This document shows positions 49,234-60,656 of a DNA stretch of 64,000 nucleotides, one piece after another. The notes under the pieces are model-generated. The model did no database searches and was not told the origin of the DNA. It saw only the letters and a list, made by a program, of their open reading frames with translations. Both the position numbers and the translations under genes were made by a program. The DNA is from Bacteroidales bacterium. GTDB lineage: Bacteria; Bacteroidota; Bacteroidia; Bacteroidales; FEN-979. Location of the stretch: NCBI GenBank assembly GCA_028706295.1, contig JAQWBQ010000002.1:59455-123454 (forward strand). Reading direction: 5' to 3'. Positions within the stretch are counted from its first letter, which is position 1. Every line of letters starts with the position of its first letter.

Positions 49234-50457
49234 ATGGCTTTAACGTCGTTGACCCTACCGAACGGTATCCGTCTGGTTCATTATCCTGTTCAGGCAAAAG
49301 TAGCGCATTGCGGACTTTTTATCAATGCCGGTACCCGTGATGAATTGGAACCTGAGCACGGGATTGCCCATTTTATTGAACACACGATTTTTAAAGGCAC
49401 CAAAAAACGGAATGTTTTCCAGGTCCTCAATCGACTTGAAAATATCGGAGCCGACCTGAACGCATTTACCACCAAAGAAGAGACATGTATATATGCCACC
49501 TTTCTTTCGGAGTATTACGACCGCACCCTTGAGCTGTTTCATGATCTCTTCTTCAACGCAATATTTCCTGAAAAAGAACTTGAAAAGGAAAAACAGGTAG
49601 TACTGGATGAAATAAAAGCCTGTAAGGATAATCCGGCAGAACAAATATTTGACGATTTCGAGGATCTGGTGTTTGCCGGTCATCCGTTGGGTAAAAATAT
49701 TCTTGGGACCAAAAGCAGTCTTAAACAGATCGACCGGAAAGCGGTGTTTGATTTTATTCACCGCAATTACCGTATGGAACAGGTAGTCATTGCTTCTGTC
49801 GGGAATATTGATTTCGCCTCACTGACGAAAAGGGTTATGAAGTACTTTATGCGGAATCCCGATCGCGGGAACATGGTACCCCGACATCCATTTAGCTCCT
49901 ACTCGAAATTCCACAGCGTTAACAGAAAGAAAACGTCGCAGGTTCACTGCGTCATTGGCAGCCCGGCCTACTGCTTTTCCGACACCCGCCGGATCCCCAT
50001 GGCGCTGCTGAATAATATGCTGGGTGGGCCTATTTTGAATTCAAGACTTTCACTGGCCTTACGCGAAAGAAATGGATTGACCTATCATAACGAATCGAAT
50101 TATACTGCTTATTCCGATTCCGGAATTGTTAGCATCTATTTCGGAACAGATCCGGTCCATTTCGACAAGGCGCTTGCCATTGTCTTCAAAGAATTGAAAA
50201 AGCTCAGGGAAACGCGGTTGACACCCATACAGTTTCATACCATTCAGAATCAGTTGATAGGGCAACTGTCCATTGCGCAGGAATCGAATTTGTCGGCCAT
50301 GCTTGCAATGGGTAAGAACTTTCTGCTGAAAAATGAATATGACCCGCCCGAATTGCTCATGGAGTTGATCCGGCGAACCACGGCTGCAGAGGTGATGGAG
50401 ATTGCAAATCAGGTGTTCGATGCATCGGGCCTGAGTATGCTTACTTTCAGATCATAG
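49234..50457 (+). CDS. M16 family zinc peptidase
   Basis: A 407-residue insulinase/processing-peptidase-like enzyme. The inverted zinc motif HFIEH is at residues 46-50 and the third ligand Glu is in LEKEKQVVLDEIKA. The C-terminal half-domain (LNNMLGGPILNSRLSLALRE, RNGLTYHNES) carries the substrate-binding RNGL-like motif. It has no signal peptide, so it is probably cytoplasmic and degrades small peptides. Only 3 bases separate it from mutB. Its stop codon region overlaps the convergent LytTR gene by 6 bases. Confidence 0.93.
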   Translation: MALTSLTLPNGIRLVHYPVQAKVAHCGLFINAGTRDELEPEHGIAHFIEHTIFKGTKKRNVFQVLNRLENIGADLNAFTTKEETCIYATFLSEYYDRTLELFHDLFFNAIFPEKELEKEKQVVLDEIKACKDNPAEQIFDDFEDLVFAGHPLGKNILGTKSSLKQIDRKAVFDFIHRNYRMEQVVIASVGNIDFASLTKRVMKYFMRNPDRGNMVPRHPFSSYSKFHSVNRKKTSQVHCVIGSPAYCFSDTRRIPMALLNNMLGGPILNSRLSLALRERNGLTYHNESNYTAYSDSGIVSIYFGTDPVHFDKALAIVFKELKKLRETRLTPIQFHTIQNQLIGQLSIAQESNLSAMLAMGKNFLLKNEYDPPELLMELIRRTTAAEVMEIANQVFDASGLSMLTFRS

Positions 50458-51165
50458 GAAGTTCTCATCAATGAACCGGGAGAATTTTTCCTTGTATTGC
50501 TCACTTACCGGAATATAAACCCTGCCGAAAACGATCCTGTTCCGTTCGATCGTTTCCACCCGGTCTAGATTTACGATGAATGACCGGTGTACACGCATGA
50601 ACCTTGAGGCCGGTAATTTCGATTCAAGTGTTTTTAATGAATTAATCGTGAGGATGGGTTTGGGTTGATTTTTCAGGAACACCTTGACGTAATCCTTCAG
50701 ACCTTCGATGTAAATGATATCGTCAAAATTGATTCGGATGACCTTATATTCGGAGTTCAGGAAGAGAAATCGGTCGTTACTTTCGATTTTGCCGGCCTTC
50801 AGAATTTCCATGTCGATGAGTCTTTTAGCCTTTTGTGCGGAAACGAGAAATTCATCGTAACCAAAGGGTTTTAAAAGATAATCAACCGCCTCGAGTTTGT
50901 ATCCCTCCAGGGCAAATTTCTCATACGCTGTAGCAAAGACGATCTTTGGACCTGAAGGCATATTTCTCACGAAATCAGTCCCAATGAGATCGGGCATCTG
51001 AATATCGAGGTAAATCAGATCGACCGGTTGTTGCTCCAGAAATTCCAGGGCGGATAAAGCGTTTTCAAAACCACCGGAGAAGGTTAAATACGAGGTGTTT
51101 TTTATGTACCCCGAAACCAATTGAAGCGCCAGAGGCTCATCATCGATTGCTATGGTGCGGATCAT
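50452..51165 (-). CDS. LytTR-family response regulator
   Basis: A 237-residue regulator. The receiver (residues 3-120) has the acidic pair at Asp8/Asp9, phospho-acceptor Asp54 in LIYLDIQMPDLIG and Lys in LLKPFGYDE. The LytTR DNA-binding domain begins around residue 140 with SEYKVIRINFDDIIYIEGLK and ends with RFMRVHRSFIVNLDRVETIE. LytTR regulators bind direct repeats and often act on envelope genes. It is the last gene of the ten-gene minus-strand run and overlaps its cognate kinase gene by 4 bases. The likely target is the run's own promoter or related surface genes. Confidence 0.95.
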   Translation of the reverse strand: MIRTIAIDDEPLALQLVSGYIKNTSYLTFSGGFENALSALEFLEQQPVDLIYLDIQMPDLIGTDFVRNMPSGPKIVFATAYEKFALEGYKLEAVDYLLKPFGYDEFLVSAQKAKRLIDMEILKAGKIESNDRFLFLNSEYKVIRINFDDIIYIEGLKDYVKVFLKNQPKPILTINSLKTLESKLPASRFMRVHRSFIVNLDRVETIERNRIVFGRVYIPVSEQYKEKFSRFIDENFL

Positions 51166-52322
51166 CCTGTTATGTTTTCGTCAAGAGTAATGGACAAAAG
51201 TACTTCAAAGCTTTCAGCTGATGAATTAAACTTCAGGTTGTGTTTCATCGGGTATAGTAAAGCAAGCCTTTTCTTTACATTTTCCAGGCCGATACCGGTT
51301 TCGGAACGGAAGATTTCCTCAGTTCCTTTTCCCTGACTGTTAAGACATCTGAACTTTATTTCCTGCCGTGAGATTTCCAAATCAATGTCGATAAAAGAGG
51401 GATTCTTGTAACTGATCCCATGTTTAAAGGCATTTTCAATGAAAGGAAGGAAGATAAGAGGAGGAATTAAGACATCCGGATAATCTTCAGGAAAATTAAT
51501 TTTCAGAGAAACGCTTTTTGAGATTCGGAGCTTCATGAGTTCAATATAATTGTTCATAAACTCAATTTCCTGGCTGATCCGGATATTCCCTTTTTCCGTT
51601 TCATAAAGAAGGTAGCGCATCAATTTGGATAATTGCAGAATTGCTTTTTGTCCGTCTTTGAGATTGATCTGAACCAATGAATAAATGTTATTCAACGTAT
51701 TGAAGAAAAAATGCGGATTGATCTGGTTTTTTAAAAATGCCAGTTCAGAATTCAACCGCGCTTTTTCAACCTCCTTGTTCAACCGTTCCTGTTGTGCAAA
51801 TTTTTCTGAGTATCTTAATCCGACACTGAATCCTGTAAGGATGACGGAGGTCAAAAGAAAATTGTAAACCGGCCAACCTTTTAATGGTCTTTTCCCACGA
51901 TCGGAACCTCTTTCGATCATCCGGGGGCCTCTGTACCTGTCTGGTTCAATACGGGGACCCTGGCCTGGTTGACCCGGAGGCGGTACGCCGGTTTCGGTTT
52001 TTCTGATTTCACCCATCGGTCTGCGATGGTATGAACTCATCATCAATTCCATTCCCAGGATTGAGATTAAAACAATAATCGCAGATGAAAGAAAATAGAC
52101 AATTCTTTTTTTTCTGAAAAAAAGGTACGGGATTAACAAAAAATAGTTCATGTAGAAAATAAAACCGAAAAGAATGGTCTGAATCATCCCGATCAGAAGA
52201 AAATTACGGTCATCACTCGATTCGAGATACAGAAAATAAGATGGCAGAACGAAAAGGAATATCCACACAAAAATGTGCATAAGGACATTCAATATTTTTT
52301 CTTTATGTGTAAAACTGCTCAT
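51162..52322 (-). CDS. LytS-type sensor histidine kinase
   Basis: A 386-residue kinase of the His_kinase (PF06580) type. Four transmembrane helices occupy about residues 12-33, 42-68, 74-95 and 151-170. An unusual Pro/Gly/Arg-rich linker (VPPPGQPGQGPRIEPDRYRG) lies between helices three and four. The phospho-acceptor His204 is in LKNQINPHFFFNTLNNIYSL; the ATPase part has IPPLIFLPFIENAFKHGISY and GIGLENVKKRLALLYP. It pairs with the LytTR regulator through a 4-base overlap. No extracellular sensor domain is present, so it probably senses a membrane or partner-protein state. Confidence 0.95.
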   Translation of the reverse strand: MSSFTHKEKILNVLMHIFVWIFLFVLPSYFLYLESSDDRNFLLIGMIQTILFGFIFYMNYFLLIPYLFFRKKRIVYFLSSAIIVLISILGMELMMSSYHRRPMGEIRKTETGVPPPGQPGQGPRIEPDRYRGPRMIERGSDRGKRPLKGWPVYNFLLTSVILTGFSVGLRYSEKFAQQERLNKEVEKARLNSELAFLKNQINPHFFFNTLNNIYSLVQINLKDGQKAILQLSKLMRYLLYETEKGNIRISQEIEFMNNYIELMKLRISKSVSLKINFPEDYPDVLIPPLIFLPFIENAFKHGISYKNPSFIDIDLEISRQEIKFRCLNSQGKGTEEIFRSETGIGLENVKKRLALLYPMKHNLKFNSSAESFEVLLSITLDENITG

Positions 52323-52325
52323 GGT

Positions 52326-53006
52326 TTAAAAAATAAAATAATAACTCAACCCACAGATAAAATCCGTTTCCGGACTTTTTACATTGTACTCTTTATTGAT
52401 CCGGTAAAACAGATCAAGCTGATTTCTGCGGTTAACCGAATATTCGATACCGGCGGTAACCCGAAATTGATCGAACGAACCATACACCATTTTGTTCAAT
52501 CTGAAAAAGAATTCCGAAGCAAGATAGGGTTTAATTTTCTTATTCAAATTATATTTCAGAGTGATTTTTCCATTCAGGTGGTTGGATGGAACATGACCCT
52601 CCTCAGAGGAATTTATTTCTGTATATTGCGACTGAAATCTTCCCCGGAGAATGATGGAAAAACGAGCTATTTTTTCTTTATAGGTCAGGTCTGCATAGTA
52701 CCTGTGTTTTGTTTTGTATGAATCATCAATTCTACGTTGATTCGAGAACCTGTAAAATAAACCCGCCTTCCATTTTTTACTGATCCGATATTCAAAACCG
52801 ATATCGCTGAAAACTTCGCCGACTTCTGTGATATTTTCATTCATTCTCAATTCCTCCGTGAAGAGCAATGACCAGGCTGGGGTTATTTTTTTTTCCAGAT
52901 TTACGCTGATCCAAAGGCATGCATCCTTCTGCTGGGACATGCCGGATAAAAACATGAGGCAGAAAAGTGAAGCCAAACAGACCGGTAAAAATCGGAAATT
53001 ACTCAT
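52326..53006 (-). CDS. DUF2490 outer-membrane protein
   Basis: A 226-residue protein with signal peptide (LPVCLASLFCLMFLSGMSQQ) and the DUF2490 pattern, seen in LWISVNLEKKITPAWSLLFT, WKAGLFYRFSNQRRIDD and FRVTAGIEYSVNRRNQLDLF, ending in an aromatic strand (SYYFIF). This family forms small beta-barrels, function unknown. It overlaps the DUF4956 gene by 8 bases and precedes the kinase by 3, so it is firmly part of the operon. It may be the outer-membrane component of the surface pathway. Confidence 0.85.
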   Translation of the reverse strand: MSNFRFLPVCLASLFCLMFLSGMSQQKDACLWISVNLEKKITPAWSLLFTEELRMNENITEVGEVFSDIGFEYRISKKWKAGLFYRFSNQRRIDDSYKTKHRYYADLTYKEKIARFSIILRGRFQSQYTEINSSEEGHVPSNHLNGKITLKYNLNKKIKPYLASEFFFRLNKMVYGSFDQFRVTAGIEYSVNRRNQLDLFYRINKEYNVKSPETDFICGLSYYFIF

Positions 53007-53748
53007 AATAGTAAATCCTGATGGTGGCGGTGTCTTTCAGGAAATTGATTTTATTGATCGATATTCTGTGAATCTTCAAACCAGTCCGGGCTCTCAGGTC
53101 CTCAATCAGTTCATTGTGATTTTCCGGTTTAATTTTTTCAATGACCTCGTACTGTACATTTTTTGATAGTTCGTGTTTAAAAATCAGGTTTCCGTCAAGC
53201 AGATATATCCCAATGAAAATCACACCGTGAAGGATCCCGAGTTCATAGTATTCCAGTTGAATGGCGCTTATCAGACCGATCCCGATAAACACGAACAGGT
53301 AACTCATGTCTTTCAGCGATATTCCGGCACTCCGGTAACGAAGCATGGAAAACACTGCAAACAATCCGAATGCAGCACCCATGGATATTTTTACTTTATT
53401 CAGAACAAACGTAAGTACAAAGATCACCAGGTTAAAAATGATGTAGGTGAAGATGTAATCCATTTTTTTATAATTCGGATAATAGATTAAGCAAATGATC
53501 AATAAAACTGTGGTTATGTTGATGGCAAGGCTGATAAAAAAAACCGCATCGATATCAATCACATCTTTATCTTTCTTTTTATCCGTTTTCTTGCATTTTT
53601 CTGACGAAGCATCGGTAAGGGTGGGATCGCTCTCAGTCGAAACCTCAGTCTGATCGGAGCTCTTTTCAGACGTGATAGCAAAACCGGCCGGAGTAAGGGC
53701 CATAAGGAACCATGACATCAATAAACAGAGGAATATTTTATTTTTCAT
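52999..53748 (-). CDS. DUF4956 membrane protein
   Basis: A 249-residue membrane protein. An N-terminal hydrophobic segment with AFA cleavage-like sequence is followed by an unusual charged low-complexity stretch (SSEKCKKTDKKKDKD), then about four transmembrane helices (residues about 70-170) with the family signature SMGAAFGLFAVFSMLRYRSA and a soluble C-terminal domain (EVIEKIKPENHNELIEDLRA). DUF4956 genes occur beside VTC and CotH genes in other bacteria, with no fixed function. It overlaps both the VTC gene (4 bases) and the DUF2490 gene (8 bases). Confidence 0.9.
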   Translation of the reverse strand: MKNKIFLCLLMSWFLMALTPAGFAITSEKSSDQTEVSTESDPTLTDASSEKCKKTDKKKDKDVIDIDAVFFISLAINITTVLLIICLIYYPNYKKMDYIFTYIIFNLVIFVLTFVLNKVKISMGAAFGLFAVFSMLRYRSAGISLKDMSYLFVFIGIGLISAIQLEYYELGILHGVIFIGIYLLDGNLIFKHELSKNVQYEVIEKIKPENHNELIEDLRARTGLKIHRISINKINFLKDTATIRIYYYE

Positions 53749-54494
53749 TTTTTGATTATTTTCTGAATTCCGAGAACTTTCATTTTGTAATTATTTTTTT
53801 TTGCGTCAGGCTCGAGCAACGAAATCCCCAGGCAATATTTACTGACGGGAAAGGGATTGATGTGATGGGCATGCATCACCAGTGTAAAAGAGGATTTTTT
53901 TGACCGTCCCTGTTTTATTTCGGCAATGACCAATCCGGGAGTTTTGTATTCCTGATCCCGGATTCGGAATTTCAGGTCTGTGTCGAGGGTCAGCCGATCG
54001 GTCAGATGTTTATTAACCAACGTTATCCTTTTAAAACTGACATCCAGCGCCGGGTAAAGCATGGAAAGGGTGTAGGGAGAAAATTGGGAGAGCAATTGTT
54101 CCTTCATGCGTTCCATTGCCGGGGCATTTTCTTTCAGTTTAATTCTGTTTTTCAATGTGCGGCCCTTATTGGATTTGAATTTAATTTCGAAAAATTCAAT
54201 GTTCGATTCGCAATATTTTCGGTACCGGATCTTGTGCCGGTTTAATTTTCCGTTTTGATGCAATGTATACATCCTGCGATCAGGAGTGTCGAGGTATTGG
54301 GTTTCGTAACCACAGTTTCTGGTATCATTTATTTCAAAAACAAAATGATCCTGTTTCATGGATCCGATAATTTCAGGAAGTCCGGAGGAATGAAACACAT
54401 ATTTTTGATCCATCCGGTCCATCAGTTTAACCTCGTCCATCTGATCCAGCGATATGGGATGAAAACCGGAAATGATTTCGTTAATAGTATACAT
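53745..54494 (-). CDS. VTC-domain polyphosphate polymerase-like protein
   Basis: A 249-residue soluble protein with the VTC/CYTH-like tunnel fold. Family residues are visible in RMDQKYVFHSSGL, YETQYLDTPDRRMYTLHQNG, NRHKIRYRKY, FEIKFKSNKGRTLKNRI and late VIAEIKQGR. Yeast Vtc4 polymerises polyphosphate from ATP; the basic and acidic residues lining that tunnel have plausible equivalents here. Whether this copy makes polyphosphate or modifies another acceptor is unknown. It overlaps the DUF4956 gene by 4 bases and the upstream secreted-protein gene by 14. Confidence 0.9.
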   Translation of the reverse strand: MYTINEIISGFHPISLDQMDEVKLMDRMDQKYVFHSSGLPEIIGSMKQDHFVFEINDTRNCGYETQYLDTPDRRMYTLHQNGKLNRHKIRYRKYCESNIEFFEIKFKSNKGRTLKNRIKLKENAPAMERMKEQLLSQFSPYTLSMLYPALDVSFKRITLVNKHLTDRLTLDTDLKFRIRDQEYKTPGLVIAEIKQGRSKKSSFTLVMHAHHINPFPVSKYCLGISLLEPDAKKNNYKMKVLGIQKIIKK

Positions 54495-55047
54495 AATCCC
54501 ACTTTTTTTCAGATTCCATTTCGTTACCGGCGGAGAGTGATTTTTTTCCTGTTTTTAACTTTTTGCTGTTATAGGTGAAATGATTTGTTCTGATTAAGGT
54601 GCCAGTTCCGGTATATATCATCTCCTTAACCTTTGCTCCCGAGGCATCGTAGATCATGACTGTTTTTTTCAGGACAGCGCCGGAAGGGTTTAATTCCGTT
54701 TCTTCCGTTTTATCGTTGAAGGCATTGTATTTCGATATCTGATGTTTATATTTTTTCTTTTCACTGTCGAATTCAATCTCCTCCAGCTTATTGTTGAATT
54801 TGTCATACCGGGTAGTCTGCCTCAGTACTTCAATGCCTTGTGAATTGTACTCAATATTAAGGGTACACAACCCCAGGCGGTTAAATTCCCTGAAAGATGT
54901 CTTACGGGTTGATGGTTTCCCGTTTTCAAGAGTCGTCTCCCATTCGGTAATGGACTGTATGTTGTTTTTTTTACGTTCCTTTTTGTTTTGGGCCTGGGCG
55001 CCTAAAAGGGTAAGCATGCAAAGCATTACTAACACGTTTGTTCTCAT
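54481..55047 (-). CDS. Secreted YD-repeat-like protein of unknown function
   Basis: A 188-residue protein with a signal peptide (LVMLCMLTLLGAQAQ) followed by a Lys-rich segment and several repeats of the type YDKFNNKLEEIEF, YNAFNDKTEETELNPSGAVL and YDASGAKVKEMIYTGTG. The pattern resembles RHS/YD or MORN-like beta-hairpin repeats that often coat surfaces or bind polysaccharide. I do not recognise a named family and infer no reaction. It overlaps the VTC gene by 14 bases and follows the small lipoprotein by 6, so it belongs to the operon. Confidence 0.75.
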   Translation of the reverse strand: MRTNVLVMLCMLTLLGAQAQNKKERKKNNIQSITEWETTLENGKPSTRKTSFREFNRLGLCTLNIEYNSQGIEVLRQTTRYDKFNNKLEEIEFDSEKKKYKHQISKYNAFNDKTEETELNPSGAVLKKTVMIYDASGAKVKEMIYTGTGTLIRTNHFTYNSKKLKTGKKSLSAGNEMESEKKWDYVYY

Positions 55048-55053
55048 GAAAAG

Positions 55054-55488
55054 TTATTTGAATATTACGATTTCCGGGATTTCAATATCCTGTTTTTTAT
55101 TTGGAACTACAACATCCCGTGTCACCGGGATCTCGGCGACTGATTGCAGCGTTGAATCCTTGGAATAAGCATATACATGGTAAGTGCCTTCACGGAGGTA
55201 TTTGAATTCGTAGGTTCCATCATAACCTGTCCGGATCCTGTCACCATAGTCACGATCATCGCCATAGATAATGTAGACCCAGATATCAGGGCCGTAATAT
55301 TCCTGTTCCAGAACGGTCATGGTAGCATTGTAGTCCTTTACATAAACTTTTCCGTAAATAGTAGCTTTTCCCCCCCGGCCCGGCTCCTTTTCACAGCCAG
55401 AAAGGATTACTCCGGCCAAAAGCATCAGAAGCCAACAATACCGGAATCCGGACACGGGAATTTTCATTTTTTTCAGGTTTGTTTTCAT
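55054..55488 (-). CDS. Small lipoprotein with carboxypeptidase-regulatory-like fold
   Basis: A 144-residue lipoprotein with lipobox VILSGC and a single beta-sandwich domain of the carboxypeptidase-regulatory or prealbumin-like type (KATIYGKVYVKDYNATMTVL, TGYDGTYEFKYLREGTYHVY). Such domains usually serve adhesion or anchoring. It is the only lipidated protein of the operon and may tether the secreted CotH, propeller or sulfotransferase-like proteins to the outer membrane. It lies one base after the CotH gene. No more specific function can be read. Confidence 0.78.
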   Translation of the reverse strand: MKTNLKKMKIPVSGFRYCWLLMLLAGVILSGCEKEPGRGGKATIYGKVYVKDYNATMTVLEQEYYGPDIWVYIIYGDDRDYGDRIRTGYDGTYEFKYLREGTYHVYAYSKDSTLQSVAEIPVTRDVVVPNKKQDIEIPEIVIFK

Positions 55489-55489
55489 T

Positions 55490-57763
55490 TCAGATAAGGA
55501 TTATTTTTTTCAGCGAACTTTGACAGCCATTCGTGACCTTGATAAGGTAAATCCCCCGACGGTAATTCGAAACATCAACTGACTCCATGCTCACCGGGAT
55601 CGTTTCCCCTGTAATATGTCGTTGCAGGGAAAAGACTTTTTGTCCGATTTCGTTGAAAATTTCAATGGAATAAAGAGCCTTCATATTGTACAGCTCTATA
55701 TTTACGAGATTGTATGCCGGGTTGGGAAATACCAGAAAATTAATGGAGGGAGTGGTCCCCACCTGGTTCAACCGCGAGAAGGTGGGTGCCATAAAAGTGA
55801 AGGATCCATATCCATTTGGAAACCGCCCGACGCTCTTCTCTTTGATCTGCTGTCCATAAGTCACAGAGTCAATAACCTGTTGCAGACTATTCGACATTAA
55901 TAATGTACCGCCGGATGCCGGAAGGATAAAATTAAAATGCAATCCAAGGGCAGATTCATCCGATGGTCGCAGGATTAAGTAAGTTTTAGGTTGTATCAGA
56001 GTATCCGGAAAGGCCCATTTTAAAGGGTCCGACAGATCGTCTGTCAGATGAAGCCCGGCGAGACTGACGGGTTCATCAATGGTGTTCACCAGTTCGACCC
56101 ATCCTCCGGAGTCCCCCTGATCAGAAGGAACACACTTTATTTCATTGATCGCGAAGGTACCCGCTTCCGGAACCGGGTAGATGGTATAATACTCATACGC
56201 AGCTCTTTCTGGTGAGAATGCCCCTGCACTGTCATTCTCAGCGTAAATATAAAATTCGATAATATTACCCCTGACCGGAATTTCCGTCCCGTAAAGTCCA
56301 TCATGCGGATCGCCATCCTGATGCTGACCATCATCAAAAAAAGGGATCTTTTCGTAAACAGCACCGGTTTTCCCCCGGTAACCGACGAATGACATCGCAG
56401 CCATGGAAAGGTTTGCATGGATCCAAACGGATTTCCCCTTTACAGGATTTTCAGGGGTATGGGTGACTTCAGTAATGACCGGCTCCCCGCTGAATCCTTC
56501 TACCGTATCAAGATAGTTCAACCGTGCCTGCATCAGGTCTTTTATTCCCGGATATTCGATCATACTGCCGGTCCCGCCAACGGTAACGGTCAGGTTCGAA
56601 ACAAAATCGGAATCCGAATAAAACTTGTTTGGGTCGTTGTAAACATTTTCTGCAATGAGGTTTTGAAGCTCCCGGCCTCGTTCAAAATATCGATTGTTCC
56701 TGACTTGCTCATTTAACATGGTACGCATATGGGCCAGATACATCTTGCGGAGTGTGTCATTGCTGAAAAGACTGGTCATTAACGGCCTGGGTGAAACCGC
56801 GAATGACAGGTGTTCCAAAGGATCCAGGATTTTCAACTGAGGTATCGACAATCCCTGAAAATGATAGGATCCATCTGATTCCCTGAAGCTTCCGAACGAC
56901 ATGTTCAAATCCCATAAAACGGGATTAAAAACGCCATTCATATCCTGGCACAGGTAGTAGTTCTGGGCATACCCGATATAGCTGTCCAGATTGAGAAAAA
57001 CAAAATTGAAAGCATGCATCCACAAGGCCCGGTCGATGTCAAGCACTCGTGCTACGCTACCACCGGAACTGTCCAATGATCTTATCAGATTGAAAAGGTC
57101 GGACCATCCGTACGTTGATTCCAGCTTGTAATAAGGGAAATAATCCGACGAATCATTACCGTGAGTGAAGGCCAGGTTGGCATTTTGTCCGAAAGGATAT
57201 TGCAATTTGTCGGGTTCACCTTTGATTAAGGGGGCCTCACCAGTACCAAAATGTTGTTCCTGGAACGAACTGGTAATCGCTTCAACATTGGTGTACAGTC
57301 CGATAAGTGTATCATTAATATATAGATTGGCGTAATTTCCACGGGGTGACGGTAAATAGGTACCTGCTATTTCATAGGCGAGCACTTCCCTTACAAAGGA
57401 AGGATCATGGATGACATTGCTGAGCTTAATCTTTGTAAATCCCTGGTAATTCTGATTTTTCAGGTGGTAATCCAGATCCAGGTTGAATGGATTCTTAACC
57501 ACATCCGGATTATAGGAGCTGTAACCTTTGTACCTGATGCCAACCTGGTGTAAAACAGAACCATCGATCGTGACAGTGCCGGTCAACCGCCCTTCATCAC
57601 CTGCATATTGAAACAGGCTGTCGAGAATATGACGCCAACCTTTTTCCGTGAATGTTATCCGGATTTCCCTGACTGTCCCGGTGCCATAGAAATCATATTG
57701 AGCTTGCGACAAGGAAACAGAGATAAGTGCGAAAATAAAAACCAGGGCGAATGCTTTATTCAC
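55490..57763 (-). CDS. CotH kinase family protein with lamin-tail and T9SS sorting domains
   Basis: A 757-residue secreted protein. The signal peptide ends near SQAQ. The CotH domain spans about residues 35-400, including VGIRYKGYSSYNPDVVKNPF and the atypical kinase core FLNLDSYIGYAQNYYL (Asp260) and PVLWDLNMSFGSF (Asp285), which correspond to the catalytic and metal-binding Asp of the spore-coat kinase CotH. A beta-sandwich and a lamin-tail domain (FAINEIKCVPSD...GGWVELVN) follow, then a type A T9SS sorting domain (FLVFPNPAYNLVNIELYNMK to the end). It overlaps the propeller gene by 4 bases. A kinase-like enzyme carried to the cell surface is unusual. Confidence 0.93.
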   Translation of the reverse strand: MNKAFALVFIFALISVSLSQAQYDFYGTGTVREIRITFTEKGWRHILDSLFQYAGDEGRLTGTVTIDGSVLHQVGIRYKGYSSYNPDVVKNPFNLDLDYHLKNQNYQGFTKIKLSNVIHDPSFVREVLAYEIAGTYLPSPRGNYANLYINDTLIGLYTNVEAITSSFQEQHFGTGEAPLIKGEPDKLQYPFGQNANLAFTHGNDSSDYFPYYKLESTYGWSDLFNLIRSLDSSGGSVARVLDIDRALWMHAFNFVFLNLDSYIGYAQNYYLCQDMNGVFNPVLWDLNMSFGSFRESDGSYHFQGLSIPQLKILDPLEHLSFAVSPRPLMTSLFSNDTLRKMYLAHMRTMLNEQVRNNRYFERGRELQNLIAENVYNDPNKFYSDSDFVSNLTVTVGGTGSMIEYPGIKDLMQARLNYLDTVEGFSGEPVITEVTHTPENPVKGKSVWIHANLSMAAMSFVGYRGKTGAVYEKIPFFDDGQHQDGDPHDGLYGTEIPVRGNIIEFYIYAENDSAGAFSPERAAYEYYTIYPVPEAGTFAINEIKCVPSDQGDSGGWVELVNTIDEPVSLAGLHLTDDLSDPLKWAFPDTLIQPKTYLILRPSDESALGLHFNFILPASGGTLLMSNSLQQVIDSVTYGQQIKEKSVGRFPNGYGSFTFMAPTFSRLNQVGTTPSINFLVFPNPAYNLVNIELYNMKALYSIEIFNEIGQKVFSLQRHITGETIPVSMESVDVSNYRRGIYLIKVTNGCQSSLKKIILI

Positions 57764-58971
57764 TGTACCATGACTTTTTTCGTGATTTTCACTGAGTTGA
57801 CCACCATGCTCAGAAAATAGAGACCCGGCTTCAGAGAACTGAGGTCCAGTTTACTGTTACAAGTTTCTCCTGTCTGTCGGAGCATGTATTTCCCGGTAAC
57901 ATCAAAGAGGATGATTTCATCAGGAAGACGGGATCCTTTCAGGTATAAAGTACTGCTGACGGGGTTCGGGAACAGGGTTATTGCATCGACGGCCTCAGAC
58001 CCGATCCCGGAGTTTTGGTCCTTTAGCCGGGACACACCGCTTCCTGTGGCAATCCAAATAATATCCTCCGCATCAATGGCAAGTTTCTGTACCATATTAT
58101 TAACAAGGCCATCAGCAGCAGTAAAAGCAGTCCAGGTTAGGTCACTCTTTTTAATAATCCCTCCGGCATGCGTATAATCGTCATACACTCCTATCCACAA
58201 AACATCCTTTGAATCGAATGAAAGATCTTTAACGTACAGGGGCAGGGTAACCGATGACGTTCTGAAGTTCGCTACCCACTGCCCAGTTTTCGTTAATTCG
58301 GAAATTCCGAGATAAGTCCCGATCCAGGCATTGCCGTTTCCGTCAAAAGCAATGGCGCTGATATTGTTATCGACAAGGCTGTCGGCCGTCGTGAAGGTTA
58401 TAAAAGTGGTTCCGTCAAATTTAGCCAATCCGCCAAGCCATGTCCCGAACCAGATATTGCCGTCAGAATCACTTTTGATGGCACTAATCATATTGACCGG
58501 TAATCCATTTCCTGTGGTATAGTTTTGCCAGGTCGACCCATTAAAATGTGAAGCACCGCTGTTGGTGCCGATCCAGATACTGCCATCGGAAGCTGCTCCG
58601 AGACAGGTGACCATGTCATCAATCAATCCGTCGGCAACTGTGTAGGAACTCCATTGTGTTCCGTCGAATACGTTGACACCGTAATCAGTACCTGCCCAGA
58701 TGTGATTGTTCTTATCGGCTGCAATACAATTGATATAATTGTCAAGTAAACCGTTTTCTTTTGTATAGGTAACCCATGATTCTCCATCAAAGCGTGCAAC
58801 GCCATTCTGTGTTCCGACCCATGTCATTGAATTGTTATCAGTCGTGATACAGAGTACATTGTCGGAGGGTAATCCATTGGAAGTCGTATAGTTGGTGAAT
58901 GTCTGAGCCGATAGTAAAGATCCTGACAGCAGGAATAATGAGAAAAGAAAAGAAAAGACCGTTGTTTTCAT
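57760..58971 (-). CDS. Secreted Reg_prop beta-propeller protein with T9SS sorting domain
   Basis: A 403-residue protein with signal peptide (FSFLFSLFLLSGSLLSAQ) and about seven repeats of roughly 41 residues (DGxxWxGTxxGVxxFDGxxW, for example SMTWVGTQNGVARFDGESW and GSIWIGTNSGASHFNGSTW), the two-component-regulator propeller unit. It lacks any kinase domain and ends with a T9SS sorting domain (ITLFPNPVSSTLYLKGSRLP...KPGLYFLSMVV). Propellers of this type normally sit in hybrid sensors; here one is free at the surface and may bind glycan or another protein. It lies 11 bases after the sulfotransferase-like gene and overlaps the CotH gene. Confidence 0.92.
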   Translation of the reverse strand: MKTTVFSFLFSLFLLSGSLLSAQTFTNYTTSNGLPSDNVLCITTDNNSMTWVGTQNGVARFDGESWVTYTKENGLLDNYINCIAADKNNHIWAGTDYGVNVFDGTQWSSYTVADGLIDDMVTCLGAASDGSIWIGTNSGASHFNGSTWQNYTTGNGLPVNMISAIKSDSDGNIWFGTWLGGLAKFDGTTFITFTTADSLVDNNISAIAFDGNGNAWIGTYLGISELTKTGQWVANFRTSSVTLPLYVKDLSFDSKDVLWIGVYDDYTHAGGIIKKSDLTWTAFTAADGLVNNMVQKLAIDAEDIIWIATGSGVSRLKDQNSGIGSEAVDAITLFPNPVSSTLYLKGSRLPDEIILFDVTGKYMLRQTGETCNSKLDLSSLKPGLYFLSMVVNSVKITKKVMVQ

Positions 58972-58982
58972 TTTTTCGATTT

Positions 58983-60656
58983 TTATCGTGAAAGAATTAT
59001 TTTTTTAATAAGAACATTTCCTGCCGTCAATTTGATTTTCAGGAAATAGATGCCATTTTTCAATGATGATAAATCAATGGAACTTTTGTTATCAATCTGC
59101 AGTAACGGTTTCCCGGTCATATCTGAAACAATCACTGTGAAAAGCCGGTTATCAAGAAAAGTTCCCGATAGGTTGATCATCCCTGTCGAAGGATTCGGGT
59201 AGATTATAAGCGATTCCTCTGATTGCTCCGGCGAGGAGGAAGCAATGAAGTTATATGCTTCTGAAAGTGACGAATAGCACCCGTTCCCGTCGTTGGTCCT
59301 GACCTGAAATGATGCGCTCAGGGTCGGGTCAAATGTCTGATTGGTTGCACCAGGCACAGAGTCGCCATTCATGTACCATTGGTATCCCGGCGCCTCGCTC
59401 GAGATCAGGCTGGTTCCCGATAAAGAAATGGAAGGCTCCGTCATACCATCGACAAAGCAGGCTGTATAACGGTAGGCATGAGCGCTTGCGCCTGATACAG
59501 TCTTTGACCAGACTGTGGTTTGATTTGAATCGATTTCGTATATGTAGCGGGCTCCTGAGATGCATATAAGGGTATTTCCGTTGGGCAACTGTTGCGAATT
59601 TCCCAGGTCCTGAATGGCATTGCCGCTATACGTATGCCTCCAGGTGTAAGTTGAGGGAGCAAATGCCGACCCGATATTTATTGCGTAATTGTAACCATTG
59701 TATGGCGGTTCTATCAAGTCGACGCACGACTTGCCTCCGGAACCACCACGGTTATTGAAACCCACCAGATATCCTGCCCTTGGGCAATTAGCGGGAACCC
59801 AGTGTGCATCGTGGACGATATTGAATATGGTGGTTCCGGATGCCTGGTAGGCGGCCGGGTTTCCCCACCGGTAAAGGAAATCACCACCTTTGCCCGAGTT
59901 TCCGCCGGTATGACCTGCAGCCTCCGCGGTGGTTGTACTGTGATCGATCACATAGATCTCGTTTAAATTATGGGATGAAAAGGTGATCTGGTCGAGTTCG
60001 GGGTTATAATCAATGCCGTTTACATGCATCCAGTCCTGGTTAGCCTGGTAATTGATGTTCAGCAATTCAGGGTGGTCGACAATGGAGGTTACATAGTTGT
60101 CCTTGGAGGCGTTTGCGTTTTGGCACAGGTGGTCCCATACATGCCATTCCCAGACCACAGTCCCGCCAGTTGTTCCCGAAGGCTGGATTTCTACGATCTT
60201 GTCGGGCCACATGGAAATGTTTTTAGTGCATCCTGCCTGGGTCACCTCTGTGGAGCTTTTAACTTCATAAGCGATCAGCAGAACATTTCCATTCGGCATC
60301 GGGCAGATGTCGTGATGAGAACAATACTGTGAGGTGGAATAGGTAAAATCCCATACCACGTTATTATTCCAATCGATCTTTTGAACGCCCCCGCAAACTC
60401 CACCACCGCCAAAATAAGGATTTTGCTTCAGTATCGTACTCAAAAGCACCCGGTTCGGGAGCAGGTACGAAGAATATCCGATTTTCGAGTTGGATGCAAA
60501 GTTGAAGGTATGATAGGTAGTGCCATCCATTTTTATCAGATAAGCCTTCGTGCCGTTTTGCACACTATAAAGGGTATAATCACCATAGGTCTGGGAACTG
60601 ACCGGGTTGCCTGAAAATATCATCAGGACTAAAATCAGAAAACAGGTCTTGTGCAT
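58983..60656 (-). CDS. Arylsulfotransferase-like secreted protein with T9SS sorting domain
   Basis: A 557-residue protein with signal peptide (LILVLMIFSGNPVSS-QTY). The main domain resembles the bacterial arylsulfotransferase family: QYCSHHDICPMPNGNVLLIA, DWMHVNGIDYNPELDQITFS, SSHNLNEIYVIDH and FNIVHDAHWVPANCPRAGYL. A PKD/Ig-like segment (EAPGYQWYMNGDSVPGATNQ) and a T9SS type A sorting domain (LIIYPNPSTGMINLSGTF) follow. PAPS-independent arylsulfotransferases use a catalytic His and transfer sulfate between phenols; whether this protein is active is untested, and it may instead be a six-bladed binding propeller. It is the first gene of the ten-gene run. Confidence 0.88.
   Translation of the reverse strand: MHKTCFLILVLMIFSGNPVSSQTYGDYTLYSVQNGTKAYLIKMDGTTYHTFNFASNSKIGYSSYLLPNRVLLSTILKQNPYFGGGGVCGGVQKIDWNNNVVWDFTYSTSQYCSHHDICPMPNGNVLLIAYEVKSSTEVTQAGCTKNISMWPDKIVEIQPSGTTGGTVVWEWHVWDHLCQNANASKDNYVTSIVDHPELLNINYQANQDWMHVNGIDYNPELDQITFSSHNLNEIYVIDHSTTTAEAAGHTGGNSGKGGDFLYRWGNPAAYQASGTTIFNIVHDAHWVPANCPRAGYLVGFNNRGGSGGKSCVDLIEPPYNGYNYAINIGSAFAPSTYTWRHTYSGNAIQDLGNSQQLPNGNTLICISGARYIYEIDSNQTTVWSKTVSGASAHAYRYTACFVDGMTEPSISLSGTSLISSEAPGYQWYMNGDSVPGATNQTFDPTLSASFQVRTNDGNGCYSSLSEAYNFIASSSPEQSEESLIIYPNPSTGMINLSGTFLDNRLFTVIVSDMTGKPLLQIDNKSSIDLSSLKNGIYFLKIKLTAGNVLIKKIILSR

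Follow-up and report, generated by a model that had tools for sequence, protein, structure and literature searches.

Spore-coat CotH of Bacillus subtilis and B. cereus (structures 5JD9 and 5JDA) acts in the mother cell and spore coat, and Fam20C kinases, which are eukaryotic, act in the secretory pathway with ATP in the Golgi; outside the cell, ATP is scarce. In yeast, the VTC complex (Vtc4/Vtc1) couples polyphosphate (polyP) synthesis to translocation. Members of these families have been reported together in Gram-positive bacteria: a cotH-PPP-DUF4956-DUF4832 cassette adjoins Pel loci (PMC7112168), SIR_1592-1594 of S. intermedius form a CotH-polymerase-DUF4956 trio at the Pel locus (PMC12345266), and NELoc-2 of Clostridium perfringens co-locates CotH with two polyP polymerase genes (PMC11677781). 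In S. intermedius, Pel and aggregation changed when the CotH and DUF4956 genes were deleted, no effect was reported for loss of the polymerase gene, and the authors of that 2025 study did not find the synteny of the trio outside Pel loci (PMC12345266). Exported CotH proteins are in themselves already known, as is the trio from Gram-positive Pel loci, and it is the T9SS version without Pel that is new; our literature searches on CotH with T9SS or with arylsulfotransferase returned nothing relevant.

We analyzed a window of 64,000 nucleotides from a Bacteroidales genome, in which the CotH gene is the third of ten minus-strand genes that overlap or lie at most 11 nt apart, in the order ASST, Reg_prop propeller, CotH, lipoprotein, small secreted protein, VTC, DUF4956, DUF2490, LytS and LytTR (Table 1). 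Annotation followed Pfam, except that the LytS kinase and LytTR regulator were assigned by sequence reading. Like the Gram-positive Pel cassette, this operon clusters the same three families and encodes a secreted CotH, but it has no Pel and instead possesses T9SS cargo, ASST and Reg_prop partners and an outer-membrane barrel. Because PelG was not found in the window's genome, and no pel genes were seen in the operon, we rejected a Pel linkage here and regard the operon as a counter-example to a trio confined to Pel loci. NELoc-2 shares the co-location of CotH and VTC-type genes with the window, whereas it is Gram-positive and has other partners.

Table 1. Operon genes with their coordinates in the window; the last column gives the share of the 80 sampled Bacteroidota loci that have the gene
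Feature	Coordinates	Strand	Details	Basis	Loci
ASST (arylsulfotransferase-like propeller)	58983..60656	minus	operon gene 1; T9SS sorting domain	Pfam	77/80
Two-component-regulator-type (Reg_prop) beta-propeller	57760..58971	minus	T9SS sorting domain	Pfam, TIGR04183	78/80
CotH-family kinase, T9SS cargo	57763..55490	minus	757 aa, GTG start	Pfam, TIGR04183, profile, model	
Small lipoprotein	55054..55488	minus	lipobox Cys32; conserved VTC-module partner		33/80
Small secreted protein	54481..55047	minus	weakly DUF6715-like; Bacteroidales operon version		19/80
VTC-domain polyphosphate polymerase	53745..54494	minus		Pfam VTC 1.3e-25	
DUF4956 inner-membrane protein	52999..53748	minus	putative polyP translocase/VTC partner	Pfam 1.8e-48	
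DUF2490 outer-membrane beta-barrel	52326..53006	minus	putative outer-membrane exit	Pfam 3.2e-27	
LytS-type histidine kinase	51162..52322	minus	operon end	sequence reading	9/80
LytTR response regulator	50452..51165	minus	4-nt overlap with histidine kinase gene	sequence reading	8/80

The first-pass annotation had described 55490-57763 as a CotH-type kinase exported by T9SS, with D260 (within FLNLDSYIGYAQNYYL) and D285 (within PVLWDLNMSFG) as its active residues, and both the frame, which lies on the minus strand, and the residue numbering were confirmed. The CotH domain spans residues 76-417 (Pfam PF08757, E 4e-39, profile positions 1-321 of 322, far above the cut-off) and is followed by an LTD domain (residues 535-637, Pfam) and a type A T9SS sorting domain (residues 678-755, Pfam Por_Secre_tail), with a TIGR04183 match that also exceeds its cut-off. 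By reading, the N-terminus VNKAFALVFIFALISVSLSQAQ is a Sec signal peptide of about residues 1-20, and the genome encodes the T9SS translocon protein SprA (2425-aa frame, 2611 bits), so that signal peptide, sorting domain and translocon together support T9SS export. The product is a genuine CotH-family T9SS cargo, and Sec and T9SS export, the LTD domain and an operon with a polyP polymerase set it apart from spore CotH. The ASST of the same operon, also a T9SS cargo (58983-60656), has strictly conserved H114, H115, H211, H239 and H282 and is a putative group-transfer protein.

A profile built from 17 relatives matched B. cereus CotH 5JD9 (3e-48), placing D260 and D285 on its two active-site aspartates and so bearing out their assignment to the spore-coat catalytic pair; the two are 25 residues apart, versus 23 in 5JD9 and in B. 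subtilis CotH (D228/D251). With the single sequence, a PDB search returned T9SS tails only, the CotH structures surfacing only with the profile. An AlphaFold2 model of residues 22-420 (pLDDT 92, pTM 0.92) found 5JDA, CotH with Mg2+ and AMP, as its top PDB match (E 4e-20, TM 0.82), and window and spore proteins have fold, Asp pair and conserved core in common. Weak matches to Fam20C (5YH0, E 6e-3, TM 0.26) and HipA-type kinases came next, the former likewise being secreted atypical kinases.

Both aspartates are identical in 47/47 CotH domains of our alignment A3 and in every sequence of a set of 80 close relatives and 21 others. The earlier reading was also to be checked for loss of other required residues, and the alignment showed R77, K79, D120, R125, E126, K181, N258, D260, Y262, N268, W284, D285 and N287 to be 100% identical in the 80 orthologues, whereas position 161 varies, 72 of them having E and the other 8 Q. 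Together with Pfam, the 5JD9 profile and the fold match, which support a kinase-like nature, this makes a catalytically competent kinase our best explanation, as judged from sequence and model. That CotH serves instead for binding or as a scaffold, with no catalytic role, an option raised at first pass, now appears improbable: surface CotH proteins of Mucorales have been studied as virulence-related surface proteins, and in some VTC-side paralogues E161 is replaced by Q and Y262 by P, but a catalytic core that is invariant in 80/80 orthologues argues against mere binding, and the fold matches nucleotide-bound CotH.

The paralogues in question come from loci in which two CotH genes flank the propeller gene (L157, L161, L166, L167, L171, L173, L175, L176, L179, L181, L182, L187 and L192). 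There, the CotH on the VTC side always has K77, Q161 and P262 (versus R, E and Y) and keeps both catalytic aspartates. A kinase-pseudokinase pair of the Fam20C/Fam20A kind was considered from E161Q and dropped because the partner CotH has Q as well in 7/13 of these loci; a division of labour between the paired paralogues is possible.

With respect to the phosphate donor, we take the adenine in BcCotH to sit between Y142 and W245, positions that align with K181 and W284. In the profile alignment, W284 (beside D285) is retained, whereas K181 stands where BcCotH has Y142. Since most other Bacteroidota CotH proteins also have Lys at this position, the residue does not point to a special donor, and a donor-specific residue change (polyP versus ATP) was sought in the CotH alignments and none was found.

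Evaluating the polyP module, we found that the VTC protein matches the Vtc4 catalytic domain 3G3Q (1e-13) and that its K31, R90, R92, K105, R156, E192 and K219 align with K200, R264, R266, K281, R361, E426 and K458 of Vtc4, which we take to be the TTM-type catalytic residues. By its sequence, then, 53745..54494 is a VTC-type polyP polymerase with intact Vtc4 catalytic residues. It shares with the yeast complex these active-site residues and a constant membrane partner, whereas the role of partner falls here to DUF4956, for which no similarity to the membrane part of yeast VTC was detected, and the proposed polyP target would, unlike that of yeast VTC, be the periplasm or the outside. DUF4956 adjoins VTC in nearly all loci, and its model has five helices and a C-terminal ACT-like domain, with invariant R137 and R139 at the end of the third modelled helix; the model gave no significant match against the PDB and resembled no solved channel there, so no function can be assigned from its fold. 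DUF2490, which comes after DUF4956 in most sampled loci of the window type, gave no match in a PDB search; its R54, R86, R121 and R182 are each conserved in 95% or more of the 28 sequences compared, and the lipoprotein has at least 95% conservation of C32 and the glycine-rich stretch that follows it. The window's genome also encodes Ppk1, so VTC is not the sole polyP maker there. At L110:8000-10336, a VTC domain lies C-terminally in a 778-aa frame in which Pfam recognized nothing else; this may be a fusion, and as such a clue to function.

To place the operon among its relatives, we sampled 80 Bacteroidota loci with the closest relatives of the window CotH. ASST and propeller accompany CotH in 77/80 and 78/80 of these, several of the exceptions being cut contigs, and the module is represented by the lipoprotein in 33, VTC in 33, DUF4956 in 32 and DUF2490 in 27. 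The whole operon, with a CotH 93% identical, was also seen in L130 (SACF01000011.1), a record titled 'Alphaproteobacteria bacterium', an organism label that is probably wrong. Where VTC is not in the CotH flank, 38/46 genomes encode it elsewhere, and DUF4956 was its neighbour in almost every case inspected. In total, 71/79 tested genomes with window-type CotH possess VTC (33 in the flank and 38 elsewhere; L133, which has DUF4956, was left out), versus 43/248 Bacteroidota generally, and six of the eight genomes without VTC are of 1.4 Mb or less and so probably incomplete.

Across the 248 Bacteroidota genomes, CotH is present in 42/43 with VTC versus 54/205 without (p 1.5e-19, a value that is optimistic because the genomes are related), and DUF4956 is present in 43/43 with VTC. 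In 18/48 loci, versus 0.8 expected, CotH and VTC are separated by no more than about 10 kb, always on the same strand. Within the window's family (43 genomes), VTC occurs in 12/12 genomes with window-type CotH versus 2/31 without, and one of these two (G263) has, at a contig edge directly before VTC, a T9SS-tail match to the window CotH query that is probably a cut CotH. The genome also encodes a second CotH T9SS cargo (G000:C59:20867-21874; L089:9571-11100:-) with no VTC nearby, and among relatives this other type has no significant link to VTC within the family (2/11 versus 0/20). As for control genomes, B. subtilis has CotH but matched neither VTC nor DUF4956, all three families occur in C. 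glutamicum and M. acetivorans, and Bacteroides ihuae lacks CotH while encoding VTC and DUF4956.

Could these genes be neighbours by chance or hitch-hiking, with no functional link? Operons can be passed on as blocks and related metagenome-assembled genomes are not independent, but the excess of co-directional loci over expectation, the co-occurrence of CotH and VTC even when unlinked, and the trio's presence in Deinococcus taeanensis, where CotH, polyP polymerase and DUF4956 are contiguous, and in Gram-positive Pel loci leave this a very remote prospect. Inheritance by itself would hardly account for the unlinked co-occurrence or for the contrast seen within the family, and the operon ties CotH to polyP synthesis and probably to its export.

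Companion genes in other loci suggest how such export might proceed. Among 20 scanned Bacteroidota neighbours, DUF4956 is followed by DUF2490 ten times and by an HlyD-type adaptor seven times. The fullest envelope-spanning version that we observed, L074 (5258-12101), has the order CotH, DUF4956, HlyD, TolC-type OEP, VTC and LTD protein, while L124 reads DUF4956, Porin_O_P, CotH, and in Pseudoalteromonas a phosphate-selective porin O/P (E 2e-47) accompanies LTD, a VTC piece and DUF4956. Among plasmids, VTC and DUF4956 matched the same 17 records. VTC-DUF4956 is also found without CotH, beside phytase-like, phosphate or phosphonate transport genes, and the neighbourhoods in Aminobacter, Shinella and Nitratireductor include a phytase-like protein, with a phosphate transporter as well in Nitratireductor; polyP may therefore serve other ends. 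At L121:8839-9864 and L122:10419-11444, in genomes without a VTC match, 341-aa proteins abutting DUF4956 match the iterated CotH profile only and are possibly, by sequence, a distant CotH-like family; as CotH they are doubtful (that of L121 has no Pfam match) and were left out of the counts.

The recurrence of outer-membrane exits and extracytoplasmic phosphate-handling enzymes beside VTC-DUF4956 is the basis of our export model, in which polyP export, its route and its use as a donor are inferred. VTC would make polyP from ATP in the cytosol, DUF4956 would move it over the inner membrane, and its passage through the envelope would fall to the lipoprotein and the DUF2490 barrel; CotH, exported by T9SS and kept at the cell surface with the co-encoded T9SS cargo ASST and beta-propeller, would draw on this polyP, whose most likely role is to donate the phosphoryl groups with which surface proteins or glycans are modified. 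We tentatively regard this whole chain of T9SS CotH kinase, VTC polyP export and surface polyP use as the best explanation, at somewhat less than an even chance. PolyP as the CotH donor is likewise the leading explanation, held with slightly more reserve, and a polyP-driven surface kinase in its detailed form, with VTC polyP passing via DUF4956 and then DUF2490, an OprO/P-type porin or HlyD-TolC to T9SS-displayed CotH, is possible and more doubtful still. The first-pass annotation had named polyP as an example of an external donor, one of its three ways around the scarcity of ATP, and that option gains strong circumstantial support from VTC, DUF4956 and an outer-membrane barrel in the operon and from the unlinked co-occurrence of CotH and VTC.

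CotH might instead use ATP, either leaked ATP with which it would phosphorylate T9SS cargo exported alongside it, while still in the periplasm or close to the membrane, or extracellular ATP, with VTC-DUF4956 being merely a co-regulated phosphate or polyP store or sensor. The spore-CotH core is retained in full, W284 with it, VTC-DUF4956 occurs without CotH beside phosphate-handling genes, and polymerase deletion in S. intermedius has no reported phenotype, the last of which we consider the strongest evidence against a simple scheme in which VTC feeds CotH; another polyP source could mask such a phenotype. We nonetheless judge the ATP reading rather unlikely, as it leaves unexplained why VTC follows the presence of window-type CotH also in genomes where the two are apart and why outer-membrane barrels, HlyD and TolC occur in VTC-DUF4956 clusters.

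The same neighbourhood evidence would also fit polyP as a product instead of a donor, displayed on the surface, with CotH anchoring or linking it to surface proteins or glycans, or priming these, to give a polyanionic coat. The ASST-type group-transfer protein in the operon favours this reading, as does the occurrence of the trio at Pel exopolysaccharide loci of Gram-positive bacteria (PMC7112168, PMC12345266). The activity of ASST is putative. We know of no CotH-fold enzyme that attaches polyP, and we consider this reading unlikely.

Under the preferred explanation, in which polyP serves CotH as donor, the operon suggests a role for DUF4956 as polyP translocase or partner, and a trans-envelope route for polyP export. 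It also extends the CotH-VTC-DUF4956 trio beyond Pel polysaccharide loci, contrary to the 2025 study (PMC12345266). Which phosphate donor serves kinases outside bacterial cells is a general question, to which this operon offers a concrete and testable answer together with a genetic system; if true, a polyP donor would resolve how bacteria can phosphorylate targets outside the cell despite the scarcity of ATP there.
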